64,000 bases of DNA from Chryseobacterium sp. FH2 (GTDB taxonomy: Bacteria > Bacteroidota > Bacteroidia > Flavobacteriales > Weeksellaceae): contig NZ_LFNE01000003.1 of NCBI RefSeq assembly GCF_001045455.1, positions 310,001-374,000 of the forward strand. Reading direction: 5' to 3'. The position numbers and the translations under genes were made by a program. The notes beneath the pieces are model-generated. The model searched no databases. It was given only the letters and a program-made list of their open reading frames with translations, and was not told where the DNA came from. This document shows positions 10,472 to 25,433 of this stretch, piece after piece (position 1 is the first letter of the stretch; each line of letters opens with the position of its first letter).

Positions 10472-11209
10472 TTAATCATGATGCCTGAATTTTCTTTTTA
10501 AGTGATAATACCTGAAAAGAATCCGGTCGTACCACAGTGCGAATAGTAGCAGAACTGCCGGAAGCAAAAGGGTTTTCAGCTCAAAGTGCTGAAAGGTAAA
10601 ACCACCGATAATACCACCTAAAAAGAAGCAGCTGATGATCATAAGCTTTAAAAATATGCTCTTGTACAATCTTGTTTTTTCTCCTTTTTCCTTATAAAAG
10701 AAGAGTTGTGAAAGTTCTATGCCCAAATCTGTGAACAGCCCGGTGAGATGGGTGGTTCTTACAACGGATTGAGATACTTTTGTTACCAGAGCATTCTGCA
10801 GTCCCATAGCGAATAGAAGTATAAAAGAAATAATTATTGAAAATGAAGAATTGCTTTCAGGAAAAAAAACGGGAGCAAAACCTATGGTAATCATAATAAT
10901 TGTTTCGATGGATATAGGAATGATATAGGAAGTATGTGAACTGTATTTGGATGCCCATTCTATAATGAGCCCTGAAATAAAGGCCCCCATTAAAAAGAAA
11001 AGAATATAAAGTAAGTAAATAAAGGCCATCCTGTAATTCTTTAAGAACAGCTGTTCTGAAAAAAAAGCAAAATGCCCCGTAACATTAGTGGTTAATGTAT
11101 TTACAGCAAGTACTCCTGTAATATTTACCAATCCTGCTACACAGGATAAAATAGAAGCTAACTTTAGATTATGGGAATAAGTACGTCCTTTTCCTTTATG
11201 CCTGAACAT
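10472..11209 (-). CDS. YoaK/DUF1275 family membrane protein
   Basis: A 245-aa integral membrane protein with about six hydrophobic segments and the DUF1275 signatures AGLVNITGVL with TNVTGHFAFF, and LFAMGLQNALVTKVSQSVVR with THLTGLFTDLGIEL. The family is widespread and resembles transporters; its substrate is not established. It stands alone on the minus strand between the 119-aa gene and the Crp/Fnr regulator. Confidence 0.9.
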   Translation of the reverse strand: MFRHKGKGRTYSHNLKLASILSCVAGLVNITGVLAVNTLTTNVTGHFAFFSEQLFLKNYRMAFIYLLYILFFLMGAFISGLIIEWASKYSSHTSYIIPISIETIIMITIGFAPVFFPESNSSFSIIISFILLFAMGLQNALVTKVSQSVVRTTHLTGLFTDLGIELSQLFFYKEKGEKTRLYKSIFLKLMIISCFFLGGIIGGFTFQHFELKTLLLPAVLLLFALWYDRILFRYYHLKRKFRHHD

Positions 11210-11318: not shown

Positions 11319-12002
11319 TTAATGCAGGTTAGCAATACGGGTCAGCTGTTTAAAATCTATCAACTGTATTTTACGTCCATCCATTAAAATAAGACTCTCC
11401 TGCCTGAAATCATGAAGTATTCGTGCTAATGTTTCGTTAGCGGTTCCCACCATGTTAGCTAGGTCATTCCTGGAAAGGGCAATATATACATTTTGTTCAT
11501 TGGTATTTGATTTATACTTTTTGTGCAGAATCAGCAAACTGAGCGCTACCCGCTCCCTTACCGTACGTTGGGAGAGAACGGTCATCAGGTTGGCCATCAC
11601 ACTAAACTCATGGCTCAGGCTTTTTAAAAGCAACCTGGAAAATACAACCGACTGATCAAGAATCTTTAAAAAATCTTCTTTTGATATAAAAGCAATGACG
11701 GAATTTTCAATAGCCTGTGTAGTGTCCCCGTATGATTCGTTACTTAAAATGGCTGAATATCCAAAAAACTCTCCGGTATTATAAATATAAATGATTTGTT
11801 CCCTGCCATCGTTATCTACTTTGTATTTTTTTACTTTGCCCGTTTTTAAGTAAAAAATACCGGTAGGTATTGTTCCATCCGTAAAAATAGCTTCGTTTTT
11901 ACGGTAATTCTTATTCTGCATCGCTGCTTTGAGCATTTCCTTATCATATTGGGGAAGCTCGTCAAAGAGATACTGGTTATTGAAAAGAAATTTTGAAATC
12001 AT
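11319..12002 (-). CDS. Crp/Fnr family transcriptional regulator
   Basis: A 227-aa protein with an N-terminal cyclic-nucleotide-binding-like beta roll (about 1-120), dimer helix and a C-terminal winged HTH. The recognition helix region SRNDLANMVGTANETLARIL keeps the Glu and Arg that contact DNA in Fnr-type proteins (ANETLAR versus VETISR in Fnr). There is no N-terminal cysteine set, so it should not carry an oxygen-labile Fe-S cluster; the effector is unknown. I chose the ATG at 12002 because a TAnnTTTG element overlaps the alternative ATG at 12014. It is divergent from pckA and an Fnr-like palindrome lies between them. Confidence 0.88.
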   Translation of the reverse strand: MISKFLFNNQYLFDELPQYDKEMLKAAMQNKNYRKNEAIFTDGTIPTGIFYLKTGKVKKYKVDNDGREQIIYIYNTGEFFGYSAILSNESYGDTTQAIENSVIAFISKEDFLKILDQSVVFSRLLLKSLSHEFSVMANLMTVLSQRTVRERVALSLLILHKKYKSNTNEQNVYIALSRNDLANMVGTANETLARILHDFRQESLILMDGRKIQLIDFKQLTRIANLH

Positions 12003-12011
12003 AGCTTGCTG

Positions 12012-12019
12012 CAAAATTA
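12012..12019 (-). promoter_or_regulatory. Putative -7 promoter element for the Crp/Fnr gene (TAATTTTG)
   Basis: Minus-strand TAATTTTG matches TAnnTTTG. If transcription starts about four bases after it (near 12008), the leader is very short and the palindrome at 12043-12056 is centred near -41.5. Confidence 0.45.
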
Positions 12020-12042: not shown

Positions 12043-12056
12043 TTGACTTAAATCAA
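12043..12056. promoter_or_regulatory. Fnr-type operator palindrome between crp/fnr gene and pckA
   Basis: TTGACTTAAATCAA matches the Fnr box TTGAT-N4-ATCAA at nine of ten fixed positions. It lies in the 131-base divergent spacer of a Crp/Fnr-family gene and pckA. Relative to the two putative -7 elements it would be centred near -41.5 for the regulator and near -62 for pckA, the usual class II and class I positions. Binding is inferred. Confidence 0.6.
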
Positions 12057-12100: not shown

Positions 12101-12108
12101 TACTTTTG
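12101..12108 (+). promoter_or_regulatory. Putative -7 promoter element for the pckA operon (TACTTTTG)
   Basis: TACTTTTG matches TAnnTTTG 26 bases before the pckA ATG. No clear -33 element is present, which would fit a promoter that relies on an activator at the upstream palindrome. Confidence 0.5.
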
Positions 12109-12133: not shown

Positions 12134-13741
12134 ATGGAGTACATTGAACACTTAAAAAATATAGGTATCCTACCTGCTAAAGAAGTTTTTTGGAATTTAT
12201 CAGAACCTCAGTTAGTATCCCAGACTCTAAGAAATAGGGAAGGTATTATAATCCAATCAGGGGCATTGGCGTGTGATACAGGTGAGTTCACGGGGCGTTC
12301 TCCTAAAGACAAATATGTTGTTAAGGATGAGAAAACCGCAGATTCGATCTGGTGGGGAGAGGTTAATCATCCTTTTCTTCCTGAAGATTTCGACAGATTA
12401 TATGAACGTGTTACCAGCCATCTCTCAGATAATGATATCTATGTTAAGGATGTTTATGCCTGTGCAAAACCAGAATACCGTCTGAATATCAGGGTTATTA
12501 CAGAAAATCCGTGGCAGAGCTTATTTGCTAATAACCTTTTCTTAAGACCTGATAAAAAGGAACTGGAAGCATTTCAACATGAATGGCTGATCTTGGCAGC
12601 TCCAAATTTTAACGCTGTTCCGGAGATAGACAAAACCCGTCAGCATAATTTTACGATTATCAACTTTACAAAAAAGGTGATTCTCATAGGAGGAAGTGCT
12701 TATACCGGTGAAATCAAAAAAGGAATTTTCACCGTATTGAATTATATTTTGCCTCATGAGAAAAATGTACTTTCGATGCATTGTTCTGCAAATATTGGAA
12801 AACAAGGAGATACCTCTGTATTTTTTGGCCTTTCAGGAACAGGGAAAACTACACTTTCAGCAGATCCATCCAGAAAACTGATCGGAGATGATGAACATGG
12901 ATGGGATGATGATAATGTTTTTAATTTTGAAGGCGGATGCTATGCTAAATGTGTGAATCTGAGTGAAGAGAAAGAACCTCAGATTTTTTCGGCTATCCGT
13001 TTCGGTACCCTGCTAGAGAATGTACGCTTTTTTGAAGGGACAGATATTGTTGATTATGATAATATTTCAGTAACGGAAAATACAAGGGCTGCATATCCTA
13101 TTGATTTTATTGATAATGCAGTACATCCGTCGATCGGTGGGGTACCCGATAATATTTTCTTTCTGACCTGTGATGCATTCGGGATACTTCCTCCCATTTC
13201 AAAATTAACGGTAGGTCAGGCGATGTATCACTTCATTTCAGGATATACCGCGAAGGTAGCAGGAACAGAAGCCGGAATTACTAAGCCACAGACTACATTT
13301 TCAGCATGCTTCGGGAAACCTTTTCTACCTCTTCACCCCACCAGATATGCCGAGTTACTTGGGAAAAAGCTGAGAGATAATAAAGTAAACGTGTGGCTTA
13401 TTAATACGGGCTGGTCCGGAGGAGCTTATGGAACAGGTGAGCGGATAAAACTTGCTTATACCAGAGCAATGATTGCTGCAGTATTGGAAGGCAAATTGGT
13501 GAATGTGGATTTTATAAGTGATACCATTTTTGGGCTTCAGATGCCTTTACAATGTGATGGAGTGCCATCAGAAATTTTAAATCCCAAAAATACCTGGGCA
13601 GACAAGTCTCAATATGACGAAACAGCCTTAGGACTTGCAGCCCGGTTTATAGAAAATTTTAAAGATTTTGAATCTTTCGCCAATGAAGAGATTATAAACG
13701 GAGGTCCTATTCTGCAAAATAAACTAAATAAACAACAATAA
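12134..13741 (+). CDS. pckA: Phosphoenolpyruvate carboxykinase (ATP)
   Basis: A 535-aa enzyme that converts oxaloacetate and ATP to PEP, CO2 and ADP at the gluconeogenic branch point. The kinase P-loop GLSGTGKTT is at residues 232-240, followed by the metal-binding IGDDEHGWD; RSPKDKYVV near the N-terminus and TGWSGGAYGTGERI near the C-terminus are family signatures. Length is standard. It opens a tightly packed series of six genes (the next starts one base after its stop codon), which is an unusual context: glycine cleavage parts follow. An Fnr-type palindrome lies upstream. Confidence 0.97.
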   Translation: MEYIEHLKNIGILPAKEVFWNLSEPQLVSQTLRNREGIIIQSGALACDTGEFTGRSPKDKYVVKDEKTADSIWWGEVNHPFLPEDFDRLYERVTSHLSDNDIYVKDVYACAKPEYRLNIRVITENPWQSLFANNLFLRPDKKELEAFQHEWLILAAPNFNAVPEIDKTRQHNFTIINFTKKVILIGGSAYTGEIKKGIFTVLNYILPHEKNVLSMHCSANIGKQGDTSVFFGLSGTGKTTLSADPSRKLIGDDEHGWDDDNVFNFEGGCYAKCVNLSEEKEPQIFSAIRFGTLLENVRFFEGTDIVDYDNISVTENTRAAYPIDFIDNAVHPSIGGVPDNIFFLTCDAFGILPPISKLTVGQAMYHFISGYTAKVAGTEAGITKPQTTFSACFGKPFLPLHPTRYAELLGKKLRDNKVNVWLINTGWSGGAYGTGERIKLAYTRAMIAAVLEGKLVNVDFISDTIFGLQMPLQCDGVPSEILNPKNTWADKSQYDETALGLAARFIENFKDFESFANEEIINGGPILQNKLNKQQ

Positions 13742-13742
13742 A

Positions 13743-14123
13743 ATGAAAATTCCTGAAAACCTCTTATATACAGTAGAACACGAATGGATAAGATTAGAAA
13801 ATGATACGGCATATATTGGAATTACCGATTTTGCCCAGCATGAATTAGGTGATATTGTGTATGTTGAAATCGAGACTCTTGGAGAGAATTTAAAACAGCA
13901 TGAAGTATTTGGAACTGTTGAAGCAGTAAAGACAGTATCGGATCTTTTCTTACCTATCGCCGGAGAAATACTGGAGATCAATCCCAAGCTGGAAGCAAAT
14001 CCTGAACTTGTCAACAACGATCCCTACGGAGATGGCTGGATGACCAAAATTAAAATCGAAAATATTTTAGATACGGAAGGGTTGTTGGGATGTGAGGCAT
14101 ATACCTCATTAATTGGCTTATAG
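13743..14123 (+). CDS. gcvH: Glycine cleavage system H protein
   Basis: A 126-aa H protein with the lipoylation motif FGTVEAVKTVSDL, lipoyl lysine K63, and the family N-terminus YTVEHEWIRLEN plus GITDFAQHELGDIVYVE. It carries the aminomethyl intermediate between the P, T and L proteins during glycine decarboxylation. Length and motifs are complete. It begins one base after the pckA stop and is followed seven bases later by gcvT. No gcvP or lpd is in the window, so this may be the main H protein or a second, operon-specific copy. Confidence 0.95.
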   Translation: MKIPENLLYTVEHEWIRLENDTAYIGITDFAQHELGDIVYVEIETLGENLKQHEVFGTVEAVKTVSDLFLPIAGEILEINPKLEANPELVNNDPYGDGWMTKIKIENILDTEGLLGCEAYTSLIGL

Positions 14124-14129
14124 TGCAAT

Positions 14130-15227
14130 ATGAAAACTGTAAAAATAAAGAAAACGGCATTCAATGCAATACATCATATCCTGGGGGGAAAAATGGTAGA
14201 CTTTGCAGGATATGAAATGCCTGTTCAGTATAAAGGTGTAAACCACGAACATGAAATCGTAAAAAATGGAGTGGGGGTATTCGATGTCTCTCATATGGGA
14301 GAGATTTCAATACAGGGGAAAGGCGCTTTGGCGTTAATTCAGAAAATTACTTCCAATGATGCATCAAAACTTATTTCCGGAAAAGTACAATACACTTGTA
14401 TGCCTAATGATACAGGCGGAATAGTAGATGATCTCCTGGTGTATATGATTGGCCAGGAAGATTATCTGTTGGTAGTTAATGCGTCCAACATACAAAAAGA
14501 CCTGAACTGGATTCTTGCAAACAATTCTTTTGGGGCGGAAATAACCAATATTTCAGACTCTATTTCCTTATTGGCGGTTCAAGGGCCTAAAGCTGTACAA
14601 GTCCTGCAGAAGCTGACCGATATCAACTTAAAAGATTTGGAATACTATACTTTCACAATTGGCGAATTTGCCCACATTCCTAATGTTTTGCTGTCTGCTA
14701 CGGGATATACCGGGGCAGGAGGCTTTGAAATATATATAGAAAACAGATATGCAGCCCACTTGTGGGAAGCTGTTTTTGAGGCAGGAAAAGAAGAAAATAT
14801 AGAACCTGTCGGATTAGCGGCAAGAGATACGTTGCGTTTAGAGATGGGATTTTGCCTATATGGAAATGATATTGATGATTTTACATCTCCATTAGAAGCC
14901 GGGTTGGGCTGGATCACAAAATTCACGAAAGATTTTGTACATAGCGGCTTTTTAAAAATTCAGAAAGAAAAAGGCGTTACCAAAAAACTGGTAGGTTTTG
15001 AAATGGAAGATAAAGGTATTCCGCGTCACGGTTATGAAATTTGGAATACAAATCAGGAAGTCATAGGAGTTGTTACTTCCGGAACGATGTCTCCTACATT
15101 AAAAAAAGCTATAGGCATGGGATATGTTTCTATAGACTATTCCGATATAGGGAATGAAGTTTTTATCAATATCAGAAATAAACCGGCCAAAGCGGTTATT
15201 GTAAAAACACCGTTTATAAAAAAATAG
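14130..15227 (+). CDS. gcvT: Glycine cleavage system T protein (aminomethyltransferase)
   Basis: A 365-aa T protein that moves the methylene group from the aminomethyl-lipoyl H protein to tetrahydrofolate, releasing ammonia. Typical signatures are present: [15 protein letters not shown] at the N-terminus, [11 protein letters not shown], and [20 protein letters not shown]. Length is standard for GcvT. It lies between gcvH and a second, degenerate H-like gene in a gap-free run on one strand. Confidence 0.95.
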
Positions 15228-15238
15228 ATCTAATCCGC

Positions 15239-15610
15239 ATGTTTATCCCTAAAAACCTTTACTATACTAAAAACCATTTATGGTTGAGAAAAATCGGTTT
15301 GTATGATTTTTGTATAGGTATCACTGATTTCGCTCAGAAAGAAATAGGTGAGATAGATCTTATTGAGTTTAATGTAGAAGGAAACATCATAAAAGAAGCT
15401 GTTTCATGGGGGTCGGTCTATGGAATTAACGAAACTTTTCCCCTTATTTCGCCTTGTGAATGTGAAATTATAGCTGTAAATACTATTTTGAACAAAAAAC
15501 CTTCACATATTAATACAGACCCATATAGCTATTGGTTTTTGAGCATTTCAGCAGATATTTGCACCAGCAAATTTTTAACTAACGAAGAATATATTCAACT
15601 TATCAAATGA
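15239..15610 (+). CDS. GcvH-like protein lacking the lipoyl lysine
   Basis: A 123-aa protein aligning end to end with GcvH: YTKNHLWLRK and GITDFAQKEIGEIDLIEF match the true H protein upstream, and WGSVYGINETFPLISP aligns with its lipoylation loop. The modified lysine (K63 in the upstream gcvH) is replaced by asparagine, N64, and neighbouring acidic and Val positions also differ. It therefore cannot be lipoylated at the normal site and cannot act as a glycine cleavage carrier in the usual way. The frame is intact and its stop overlaps the start of the methyltransferase gene (ATGA), so it looks maintained rather than decaying. Its role is unknown; a binding or regulatory partner for GcvT or for the downstream enzymes is possible. 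Confidence 0.85.
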   Translation: MFIPKNLYYTKNHLWLRKIGLYDFCIGITDFAQKEIGEIDLIEFNVEGNIIKEAVSWGSVYGINETFPLISPCECEIIAVNTILNKKPSHINTDPYSYWFLSISADICTSKFLTNEEYIQLIK

Positions 15611-16203
15611 TTTTTAATGATCTTAAATTAAATATTGATGTTAAAGACAGTACCTTTAATGAACTTTATCCTAATCATATAAAAGAATTGGCCAGCCGCC
15701 ACTGGACGCCAATTGCTGTTGCCAAGATGGCAGCTGAGTATCTTGCCGAAGAGCCTAACAGTAAAATACTGGATATTGGAGCAGGTGCCGGAAAGTTTTG
15801 TCTGGTGGGAGCGGCTTCTACAAAGGGAATGTTTTTCGGTGTTGAGCAAAGGGCTTCTCTCACCAAAATATCAAAAAAAATAGCGGACAGGCATAAAATT
15901 ACCAATGTAGAATTTATACATTCCAATATCAACGAAATTTCTTTCTCCGATTATGATGCATTCTACTTTTTTAATTCTTTTTATGAAAATATAGATACTT
16001 CATGTCTCATCGACGATACAGTACTGCCAGACAGGGATTTATATTATGCTTATTCAGATTATGTAAAAGAACAGCTTGATAAAACTCCTATAGGTACACG
16101 TTTGGCAACCTACTGGAGTAAATGGGATGAAATTCCGAGCAGTTTTGATCTGACGGGTACTGCCTGCAACGGATTATTAAACTTTTGGAGGAAAATGTCG
16201 TGA
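15607..16203 (+). CDS. Class I SAM-dependent methyltransferase-like protein
   Basis: A 198-aa protein with the S-adenosylmethionine motif I ILDIGAGAGKFCLVGA (about residues 55-70), an acidic strand end FFGVEQR (motif II) and a FYFFNSFYENI region where motif IV is expected. The ATG overlaps the stop of the H-like gene by four bases, implying translational coupling. The substrate is unknown. The coupling to a lysine-less H-like protein and to an oxoamine synthase suggests a shared pathway, but the sequence does not say which. Confidence 0.8.
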   Translation: MIFNDLKLNIDVKDSTFNELYPNHIKELASRHWTPIAVAKMAAEYLAEEPNSKILDIGAGAGKFCLVGAASTKGMFFGVEQRASLTKISKKIADRHKITNVEFIHSNINEISFSDYDAFYFFNSFYENIDTSCLIDDTVLPDRDLYYAYSDYVKEQLDKTPIGTRLATYWSKWDEIPSSFDLTGTACNGLLNFWRKMS

Positions 16204-16258
16204 ACCTGTGGGATAAACCGGAAAACTAAAAATAAACATTCAATACCCAAACAGATAT

Positions 16259-17497
16259 ATGAATATTTTAGATAAAATAAAAACCCGTCTCGGTCCGTTA
16301 GGCGATCATGCCCATTATGCTCATGGGTACTATGCTTATCCAAGGCTTGAGGGAGATATTAGCAATATGATGCTTTTTAATGAAAAAAAGAAATTGGTTT
16401 GGAGCCTGAATAATTATTTAGGGTTAGCCAATCATCCTGAAGTTAGAAAAGCGGATGCTGAAGGAGCCAGGCAATATGGTCTTGCTTATCCGATGGGAGC
16501 ACGAATGATGAGTGGAAATACTAAATTGCATGAAGAGTTTGAAGAAAAAATTGCTGATTATGTTCAAAAGGAAGATGCTTTTTTATTAAATTACGGTTAT
16601 CAGGGAATGGTATCAATAATTGATAGCCTGGTTGACCGGAAAGATGTAATAGTATATGACGCAGAATCACATGCATGTATTATTGACGGAATGCGTTTGC
16701 ATCTTGGGAAACGGTTTGTTTTTAAGCACAATGATATAAAGGATTGTGAAAAACAATTGGAACGTGCGAAAAAAATAGTACAAGAAACAAAAGGCGCCAT
16801 ATTGGTAATAACAGAAGGTGTTTTTGGCATGCGTGGGGATCAGGGGAAACTAAAAGAAATTGTAGCGCTTAAAGATAAATTTGATTTTTCCCTCTTGGTA
16901 GATGATGCTCATGGAATTGGCTGTCTGGGAAAAACGGGAGCAGGGACTGGGGAAGAACAGGGGATCCAGGATGGTATTGATTTTTATTTTGGAACATTTG
17001 CTAAATCATTTGCAGGTATTGGTGCTTTTGTTGCCAGTACCAAAGAGGCTATATTATTTTTAAAATATAATATGCGGTCACAGATATTTGCTAAAGCACT
17101 GCCCATGCCAATGGTTTTTGGTGCTTTAAAACGATTGGAATTAATTCGTACAAAGCCGGAGCTTAGAGAAAAATTATGGACAATAACACATAATCTGCAA
17201 AATGGTCTGACCGATGCAGGTTTCGATATTGGCAATACCAATTCTCCGGTAACGCCCGTTTATCTCAATGGTACTATCGGAGAAGCTACAGCTTTGGTGC
17301 ACGACTTACGGGAAAATCATCAGATCTTCTGCTCTATGGTAGTTTATCCTGTCGTGCCAAAAGGAATGATTATTTTACGATTAATCCCCACGGCGGTACA
17401 TACCTTAGAAGATGTTGAAAGAACAATAAGTGTATTTAAAAAGATTAGGACAAATCTGAATTTAGGTTATTATAACCAGCCGGGAGAGACGAATTAA
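16259..17497 (+). CDS. PLP-dependent alpha-oxoamine synthase (serine palmitoyltransferase/KBL-like)
   Basis: A 412-aa fold-type I PLP enzyme of the alpha-oxoamine synthase group, which condenses an amino acid with an acyl-CoA and releases CO2. Signatures are NNYLGLANHPEV, DAESHACIIDGMRLH, VDDAHGIGCLG and the PLP lysine K249 in FGTFAKSFAGIGAF. I consider it closest to Bacteroidota serine palmitoyltransferase or cysteate acyltransferase-type enzymes; glycine C-acetyltransferase is an alternative made attractive by the glycine cleavage genes upstream. It is the last gene of the run; a strong terminator follows. Confidence 0.85.
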   Translation: MNILDKIKTRLGPLGDHAHYAHGYYAYPRLEGDISNMMLFNEKKKLVWSLNNYLGLANHPEVRKADAEGARQYGLAYPMGARMMSGNTKLHEEFEEKIADYVQKEDAFLLNYGYQGMVSIIDSLVDRKDVIVYDAESHACIIDGMRLHLGKRFVFKHNDIKDCEKQLERAKKIVQETKGAILVITEGVFGMRGDQGKLKEIVALKDKFDFSLLVDDAHGIGCLGKTGAGTGEEQGIQDGIDFYFGTFAKSFAGIGAFVASTKEAILFLKYNMRSQIFAKALPMPMVFGALKRLELIRTKPELREKLWTITHNLQNGLTDAGFDIGNTNSPVTPVYLNGTIGEATALVHDLRENHQIFCSMVVYPVVPKGMIILRLIPTAVHTLEDVERTISVFKKIRTNLNLGYYNQPGETN

Positions 17498-17579: not shown

Positions 17580-17614
17580 AGTATTACTACATTTTTGTAG
17601 TAATACTTTTTTTA
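17580..17614 (+). terminator. Rho-independent terminator of the pckA operon
   Basis: AGTATTACTACA (17580-17591) and TGTAGTAATACT (17596-17607) form a perfect 12-bp stem with a TTTT loop, followed by a run of T. It closes the pckA-to-oxoamine-synthase unit. Confidence 0.9.
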
Positions 17615-24140: not shown

Positions 24141-25433
24141 ATGGAAAAAAAATATAAAATTGCCGTTATCGGATTAGGATATGTCGGTTTACCTTTAGCG
24201 CGTTTGTTTGCAACTCAGTATCCGGTTGTAGGATTTGATATCAATCAAAAAAGGATTGATGAATTAAACACAGGAATAGACAGTACTTTAGAAGTAGAAA
24301 ATAATGTCTTACAAGCTGTGTTATTAAAAGAAAACCCTTCACTTGAAGGGGAGAATAATGGACTATATTGCTCGGCAAATATTGATGATATCCGTGATGC
24401 AAATATCTATATCGTAACGGTCCCAACACCGGTTGATAAGCATAATCGTCCTGATTTGACGCCGTTGTACAAATCTTCTGAAACGGTAGCTAAAGTATTG
24501 TCAAAAGGGGATATTGTGATTTATGAATCTACAGTATATCCAGGAGTTACAGAGGAAGAGTGTATTCCTGTATTAGAAAAAGATTCCGGGCTAAAGTTTA
24601 ATCAGGATTTCTTTGCAGGTTATTCACCGGAGCGAATCAATCCGGGTGATAAAGAGCATACAGTAGAGAAAATTTTAAAAGTTACTTCAGGTTCCACTCC
24701 TGAAATTGGAAAAATAGTAGATAATTTATATAAATCTGTAATTGTTGCCGGTACCCATCTTGCTCCGACAATAAAGGTAGCAGAAGCGGCTAAAGTGATT
24801 GAAAATTCGCAAAGAGATATTAATATTGCCTTTGTCAATGAGCTTGCGAAAATTTTTAATCTGCTGGATATTGATACTCATGCGGTATTGGAAGCTGCGG
24901 GAACCAAATGGAACTTTTTACCCTTTAAACCCGGATTGGTAGGCGGTCACTGTATTGGGGTAGATCCTTATTATTTGGCTCAGAAAGCTCAGGAAAAAGG
25001 ATATCATCCGGAAATTATTTTAGCGGGTCGTCGCTTAAATGATTCTATGGGAGAATACGTTGCTTCTCAGCTTGTAAAGACATTGATTAGAAAAGATATT
25101 AAAGTAAATGGAGCGAAAGTGCTGAATTTAGGAATTACCTTTAAAGAGAATTGTCCGGATGTAAGAAATACTAAAGCAGTGGATGTGATTAATGGGCTTG
25201 CAGACTATGCTTTAGATGTCACGACTTTTGATCCGTGGGCTAACCCTGAAGAAGTAAAACATGAGTATAATCTTCATGTTGTAAATAAGATTCCGGACGA
25301 AAAGTTTGATGCGATTATTCTGACGGTTGCACATAAAGAATTCATTGATATAAATTTGAATAATTATTTAAAGGAAGGAGGAATAATTTATGATGTGAAG
25401 GGAGTTTTAGAAGAATGCGATTCTAGGCTGTAA
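24141..25433 (+). CDS. UDP-N-acetylhexosamine 6-dehydrogenase (WbpO/TviB-like)
   Basis: A 430-aa nucleotide-sugar dehydrogenase that oxidises C6 of a UDP-HexNAc to the uronic acid. NAD motif [12 protein letters not shown] is at the N-terminus, [10 protein letters not shown] in the middle and the catalytic cysteine is C271 in [12 protein letters not shown]. The best match by motif is the TviB/WbpO group. I took the ATG at 24141; a TTG fifteen bases upstream is in frame but adds only an atypical five residues. It pairs with the epimerase gene just upstream. Confidence 0.92.

Follow-up and report, generated by a model that had tools for sequence, protein, structure and literature searches.

Sulfonolipids affect the development of choanoflagellates (PMC3463246) and have been linked to inflammation in mice (PMC11211663). 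Their regulation in bacteria seems largely open. The described enzyme closest to the one that concerns us here is SulA, a cysteate fatty acyltransferase (CFAT); according to PMC9304779, Lys281 distinguishes SulA from serine palmitoyltransferase, which has Ala at that position. Here we describe a six-gene operon that joins a CFAT-type gene with relatives of the glycine cleavage system, a phosphoenolpyruvate (PEP) carboxykinase (PEPCK) and a methyltransferase, beside a regulator gene of the Crp/Fnr family. The operon occupies positions 12134-17497 of a 64,000 nucleotide stretch of Chryseobacterium sp. FH2 (contig NZ_LFNE01000003.1, positions 310,001-374,000), called the window below. A literature search, with most subscription journals outside its scope, found no paper on this gene grouping or on a connection between glycine cleavage and sulfonolipids. 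The terms PEPCK, glycine cleavage and Chryseobacterium matched only a xylan transcriptome of Roseithermus, and no sulfonolipid was mentioned among the matches listed for searches joining the terms sulfonolipid, gcvT, gcvH, pckA and aminomethyltransferase.

We consider it about an even proposition that this operon is accessory and inducible, encodes second-copy enzymes behind a Crp-type switch of its own and is common to several genera, with a sulfonolipid base as its clearest product. In such a scheme the Crp/Fnr-family regulator would activate the operon on a redox or low-oxygen-type signal, and PEPCK and the glycine cleavage proteins would steer three-carbon and one-carbon units through PEP, serine and glycine. 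The second CFAT would condense cysteate with acyl-ACP (acyl carrier protein) to form 3-ketocapnine, raising or changing sulfonolipid output. The H-like protein could act as an H protein that carries no lipoate and serves in docking or regulation, with GcvT or the methyltransferase as its most likely partner, and the methyltransferase may modify a protein or small molecule of the same pathway. Since a second cysteate acyltransferase would stand behind a visible switch, inducible sulfonolipid synthesis could be tested at a single promoter.

Organization of the operon

Open reading frame (ORF) listing confirmed six plus-strand genes with intergenic gaps of 1, 6, 11, -4 and 55 bases, in agreement with a sequence-only reading of the window that had described six tightly spaced genes on one strand. 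The -4 gap is an ATGA overlap of the H-like gene with the methyltransferase gene. Each of the six proteins has at least one Pfam match above cut-off, which in operon order are PEPCK_ATP, GCV_H, GCV_T with GCV_T_C, GCV_H, class I methyltransferase models and Aminotran_1_2. The first gene, pckA (12134-13741), encodes a second copy of ATP-type PEPCK (PF01293, 733.8 bits). Second copies of gcvH (13743-14123), which scores 147.5 bits on TIGR00527 (cut-off 115.85) and has the lipoyl lysine in the alignment, and of the aminomethyltransferase gene gcvT (14130-15227; TIGR00528, 402.9 bits, cut-off 235.85) follow. The next two genes encode the H-like protein (15239-15610; PF01597, 61.5 bits, cut-off 22.2), with Asn64 in place of the lipoyl lysine, and a class I methyltransferase (15607-16203; PF13847, 38.9 bits, cut-off 27). 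The last gene (16259-17497) encodes the predicted second CFAT, assigned from its structural relatives and an equivalent of Lys281.

The strong terminator that had been proposed for the operon end corresponds to a terminator-like hairpin of 12 pairs followed by a T tail (17580-17607, plus strand; -14.4 kcal/mol, z -6.8), starting 83 bases past the last stop codon; its reading as a terminator comes from the hairpin energy, since the scan for such sites as a class was at chance level (4 sites found, 3.9 expected). The sequence-only reading was also correct that gcvP is missing, and the window operon does not hold the P, H and T genes of glycine cleavage together, yet the genome has a single gcvP approximately 44 kb upstream. 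That reading had overlooked the Crp-type regulator encoded on the opposite strand, together with its site, as well as the fact that the enzymes are second copies and that the operon is spread over several genera.

The oxoamine synthase

The solved structures most similar to the operon oxoamine synthase are SulA of Alistipes finegoldii (7u7h; E value 6e-174, 581.9 bits) and a cysteate-C-fatty acyltransferase (28eh; E value 6.5e-170, 568.6 bits). Serine palmitoyltransferase and 2-amino-3-ketobutyrate CoA ligase scored 243.9 and 204.4 bits respectively, and the lead of SulA/CFAT over the other solved oxoamine synthases is more than 300 bits. The window protein aligns with SulA/CFAT over residues 8-407, has the pyridoxal phosphate lysine and carries Lys279 as the equivalent of SulA Lys281. 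All 24 CFAT-type rows of the alignment share this Lys, and the two further oxoamine synthases aligned, both from the window genome, have Ala or Asn there. On sequence grounds we regard the operon enzyme as a predicted cysteate fatty acyltransferase of SulA/CFAT type.

Other identities for this enzyme were tried and rejected. The serine palmitoyltransferase model NF047600 gave a score of 310.9 with a cut-off of 640, and 5-aminolevulinate synthase and BioF were both below their curated cut-offs. Glycine C-acetyltransferase (Kbl) gave 295.5 and 247.6 bits with PRK06939 and TIGR01822, whose cut-offs are 460 and 493. This enzyme was the basis of a proposal in the sequence-only reading that the operon serves glycine/threonine salvage, an idea that the GcvH and GcvT encoded alongside would accommodate. 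With the acetyltransferase models below cut-off, SulA/CFAT so far ahead and the Lys281 equivalent present, we consider salvage of this kind extremely improbable. The other proposal of that reading was a route to a modified sphingoid or sulfonolipid base supplied with methyl or one-carbon units; the sulfonolipid base is supported for the oxoamine synthase gene alone, and the methyl or one-carbon supply would be conjecture.

Second copies of housekeeping enzymes

Judged from their sequences, the operon genes encode isozymes of PEPCK, GcvH, GcvT and CFAT (plus GcvP in two Flavobacterium genomes) that exist beside housekeeping copies. The operon PEPCK is 45% identical to the housekeeping PEPCK of the window genome, the operon GcvH is 54% identical to the housekeeping GcvH on contig C5, both with the lipoyl lysine, and the operon GcvT is 56% identical to the other GcvT on contig C8. 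The operon CFAT is 62% identical to the housekeeping CFAT on contig C9. Their settings differ, in that the operon CFAT gene lies in a regulated operon with the genes for PEPCK and GcvH/T, whereas the housekeeping gene adjoins a gene resembling those for cysteate synthase, for which CapA was the best model (545 bits, below the cut-off of 600). Likeness to the glycine cleavage system consists of a GcvH with its lipoyl lysine and a GcvT, both above curated cut-offs, and of the gcvP found in the Flavobacterium version. The operon differs from that system in being a second copy, in lacking gcvP in the window, in encoding an additional lysine-less H-like protein and in having PEPCK in front.

All 60 Chryseobacterium genomes contain the common copies of PEPCK and CFAT; a second PEPCK was found in 8 and a second CFAT in 6. 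All six genomes with a second CFAT lie within the eight with a second PEPCK, and in each of the six the two gene starts are 3.8-4.2 kb apart (Fisher p for co-occurrence 5.6e-7, counted per genome and uncorrected for kinship). This co-occurrence, together with the constant gene order in related loci, argues that the grouping is not due to chance.

Gene order and erosion in related loci

Relatives were gathered through matches to the H-like protein, the methyltransferase or CFAT, which produced 21 distinct operon loci, including the window, and four loci in which only the methyltransferase is intact; gene counts over these loci (numbered with L, and genomes with G) are biased as a consequence. 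Gene order was identical in all 20 loci holding at least two of the six genes. The full order is present in two families, and whole or eroded versions exist in Flavobacterium, Bizionia and Maribacter. A retention of pckA alone among variable genes, which would have spoken against the sequence-only reading, was not seen; single genes including pckA have often been lost, while the order is constant and relics remain. Relics of PEPCK are present in L007 and L010, of GcvH in L013, of GcvH and CFAT in L011, and of GcvT and the H-like protein in L049, which shows that the fuller operon is the older form and was then eroded piecemeal. Searching with the H-like protein identified 11 loci; the named genomes that contain them belong to Chryseobacterium, Flavobacterium, Maribacter and Bizionia. 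Among these the regulator was intact in 11, the methyltransferase in 9, PEPCK and GcvH in 7 each, CFAT in 5 and GcvT in 4. Every operon gene tested is under purifying selection, with ratios of nonsynonymous to synonymous substitution (dN/dS) of 0.037-0.258 in unsaturated pairs.

The divergent regulator and the promoter region

Upstream of the operon and on the opposite strand is a gene for a Crp/Fnr-family regulator (11319-12014, minus strand) with cNMP_binding and HTH_Crp_2 domains. It is directly divergent in 18 of the 21 operon loci, approximately 3 kb off in L054, and absent from the stretch read in L052 and L055. The sequence ahead of pckA contains the palindrome TTGACTTAAATCAA (12043-12056), a putative Crp/Fnr-type operator, and TACTTTTG (12101-12108, plus strand), which by the Bacteroidota -7 consensus is probably the -7 element of the operon promoter. 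A TTGA-N6-TCAA site was found in all 21 loci, with both half-sites complete in 18 and one changed base in three. The -7 element was sought first as TAnnTTTG, which occurred in 15 loci, and was widened to TAnnTTT[G/A] after six loci lacked the G; those six have TAnnTTTA, giving 21 of 21. From the operator centre to this element there are 51 bases in 19 loci and 52 in two. The distance is fixed even though the spacer of the window is only 45-48% identical to those of L008, L012, L013 and L058. Some of the loci are close kin, the spacer of L014 being 98% identical to that of the window, and the 21 of 21 therefore does not represent 21 independent events. In the genome of 4.0 Mb, the exact sequence TTGAYTTAAATCAA is found at the operon operator and nowhere else.

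These sequences show a promoter region common to the regulator gene and the operon, in which a palindromic site of Crp/Fnr type lies a fixed 51-52 bases from the probable promoter element. Taking the Bacteroidota -7 consensus as a guide, the operator would lie near -61 of the expected start. The arrangement resembles CRP/FNR systems in the effector and HTH_Crp domains of the regulator and in a TTGA-N6-TCAA site, whose position would be near -61 on our reading of the promoter. It is unlike FNR in that the regulators have no invariant cysteine for holding an Fe-S cluster and in that the regulator gene adjoins its own likely site. A second TTGA-N6-TCAA palindrome, TTGATATCAATCAA, exists elsewhere in the window at 24235-24248.

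The H-like protein and the methyltransferase

Alignment bore out the absence of a lipoyl lysine from the H-like protein. The position is Asn in 16 of 17 intact copies and His in one, so that the new Asn64 is nearly fixed, and both the arm lysine and the cavity residues have been replaced. None of the 17 copies keeps Glu14, which is replaced by Leu, Val or Ile, and position 67 is Phe in 16 and Leu in one; Asp68 is kept in a single copy (L053), as is Glu12 (L011). On the gcvH model TIGR00527 the window protein scores 67 bits, below the cut-off that the operon GcvH exceeds. With these changes it should be unable to serve as a normal H protein. Its dN/dS values of 0.092-0.258 (unsaturated pairs) show purifying selection, although it evolves faster than the other operon genes, and on these values and the 17 intact copies we reject a pseudogene. 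A single broken copy was found, in L060.

The H-like protein shares the GCV_H domain with the not_gcvH family TIGR03077, on whose model it scores 29.7 bits (cut-off 144.05), and with lipoate-binding proteins of Hdr-like sulfur oxidation (PMC6067878). It differs from these other GcvH-like proteins in the loss of the lysine and in the overlap of its gene with a methyltransferase gene. The protein may dock GcvT or the methyltransferase. A more elaborate idea, which we consider a long shot, is that the two form a lipoate-free H-protein module, in which the H-like protein would dock GcvT (or CFAT/ACP) and present it to, or control it via, the coupled methyltransferase, and would thereby join glycine cleavage and the synthesis of the sulfonolipid base behind a single Crp-type switch. 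Structure predictions were of low confidence, with a mean predicted local distance difference test score (pLDDT) of 38.3 for the methyltransferase (10 rows) and 38.8 for the H-like protein (12 rows). A lysine-less H protein constitutes a natural test of what H proteins can do without lipoate. Three GCV_H matches were also observed in genomes G154, G195 and G055, of which G154 has no methyltransferase match.

The methyltransferase matches generic class I models, and a profile search of solved structures gave only generic methyltransferases (best E value 0.00069). The DOT1 model was matched by 6 of 10 members, at best with an E value of 8.6e-5, and is outscored by the generic models. At an E value of 0.001 or below, 30 of the 395 genomes covered in the order contained a match to the methyltransferase, 12 of them, including the window genome, at 62-100% identity and the other 18 at no more than 38%. 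There was no match in the plasmids searched.

Spread of the operon between genera

Operon-type CFAT (84-100% identity) is present in 3 of the 395 genomes; a CFAT with 68% identity in G364 groups with housekeeping CFATs in the tree. When two Chryseobacterium genomes are compared with three of Flavobacterium, the operon CFAT is 88-90% identical and the housekeeping CFAT 71-74%. The tree places the 13 housekeeping-type rows in one group (support 88/80), with the operon rows outside it. Transversions at fourfold sites are fewer for the operon CFAT in six Chryseobacterium-Flavobacterium pairs (0.32-0.37 versus 0.39-0.52). As only transversions are fewer, and only relative to Flavobacterium, transfer of the operon between lineages, rather than slow evolution, is suggested but unproven.

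Proteins with SSB, Toprim, HTH_17, ThiF or DUF932 domains are encoded beside the operon at L053, L059 and L061, and we read these as mobile-element-type genes. Such neighbours, the patchy presence of the genes (the methyltransferase in 12 of 395 genomes, the second CFAT in 6 of 60) and their piecemeal loss across loci could all be explained by a mobile region that collects unrelated duplicated genes as cargo behind one strong regulated promoter, without any joint function. Cargo of this kind would not account for the same order in every locus with at least two genes, nor for the full order in two families or the purifying selection on all genes tested, and we think it quite unlikely.

Metabolic context

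In the Flavobacterium loci L008 and L009, gcvP lies 10 bases downstream of CFAT, and a thiolase gene in the same direction is also present (models for L008). The genomes of both loci contain two gcvP genes, and each of five other genomes searched contains one. As a link to glycine cleavage, this gcvP favours the accessory sulfonolipid operon. Thus Flavobacterium adds gcvP and thiolase and not cysteate genes, while in L004, L006, L012 and L052-L055 CFAT is gone and PEPCK and GcvH are kept. These features, with the Crp/Fnr-type site and its fixed promoter geometry, would fit a switch of central metabolism that answers to low oxygen or redox state, in which the second PEPCK (toward oxaloacetate) and glycine cleavage would adjust carbon and redox balance and CFAT would only adjust the membrane, with no flux between the two. 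Pointing the other way are L010 and L058, which have kept CFAT and lost PEPCK, GcvH and GcvT, and L013 from Bizionia saleffrena, in which fabF lies 24 bases downstream of CFAT and gives the operon a link to lipids. We regard the switch of central metabolism as a serious though somewhat unlikely explanation.

A cysteate-synthase-like gene adjoins a DUF1275 gene and the operon in L054 (5481-6506, whole) and L055 (2-535, partial), from G179 and G187; the same partial gene opens contig L067 (2-535), and a repeat or assembly effect is possible. Metallo-beta-lactamase/rhodanese proteins are encoded beside the operon in L061 (9188-13253) and L058 (5350-8099), with TauE and Sulf_transp proteins also in L061 and a SulP permease in L058. 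The sulfur neighbours and cysteate-synthase-like genes, though few, are consistent with sulfite or cysteate supply.

Several observations weigh against an accessory sulfonolipid operon with its own switch and a history of transfer. No chemical link ties PEPCK or glycine cleavage to cysteate, and neither a cysteate synthase nor a 3-ketocapnine reductase is among the six operon genes. All six genes are intact in only 3 of the 11 H-like loci (L008, L009 and L014, the last from C. elymi). In 4 of the 12 genomes carrying the methyltransferase it is the sole intact operon gene; use outside the pathway is thus possible, and its role may not be strictly bound to the operon. The 12 regulators compared have no cysteine common to all that could bind an Fe-S cluster, so the regulator is not an Fe-S FNR, and an oxygen signal is a guess. 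Operator sequences with one mismatch number 26/27 in the genome versus 7/6 in a reversed control (palindromes counted twice), an excess that makes a wider regulon possible; of four such sites inspected (L043-L046), three are inside ORFs and one is at an ORF end, 55 bases before the next ORF. With respect to transfer, the operon CFAT rows fail to form one resolved clade in the tree, total fourfold-site divergence is about equal for operon and housekeeping CFAT, and there is no transversion deficit for the operon CFAT relative to Bizionia or G408.

Other genes near the operon

A gene for a DUF1275 membrane protein lies on the minus strand of the window at 10472-11209, and 15 of the 25 loci compared have a DUF1275 gene close to the operon, on one side or the other. 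A further Crp-like gene is present near the sulfur genes of L061 and L058, that of L058 judged by eye. In Bizionia and G408 an extra ORF of 86 amino acids lies behind the methyltransferase gene (L012 8947-9207, L013 8950-9210, L058 10147-10407), and the L013 copy has no Pfam match. A small, cysteine-rich ORF of 70 amino acids with CxxC motifs is the first gene after the operator in L058 (9172-9384; no Pfam match for this copy) and is also found upstream of gcvH in L011. Two related genomes encode a beta-carbonic anhydrase, another CO2-handling enzyme, close to the operon (L053 10865-11530, with a Pro_CA match, and L059 1347-2012, with a similar start). Downstream of the operon, the window continues with a long run of mainly plus-strand ORFs (17861-38673), the first three of which resemble by eye the capsule/exopolysaccharide genes for an epimerase, a Wza-like and a Wzc-like protein.

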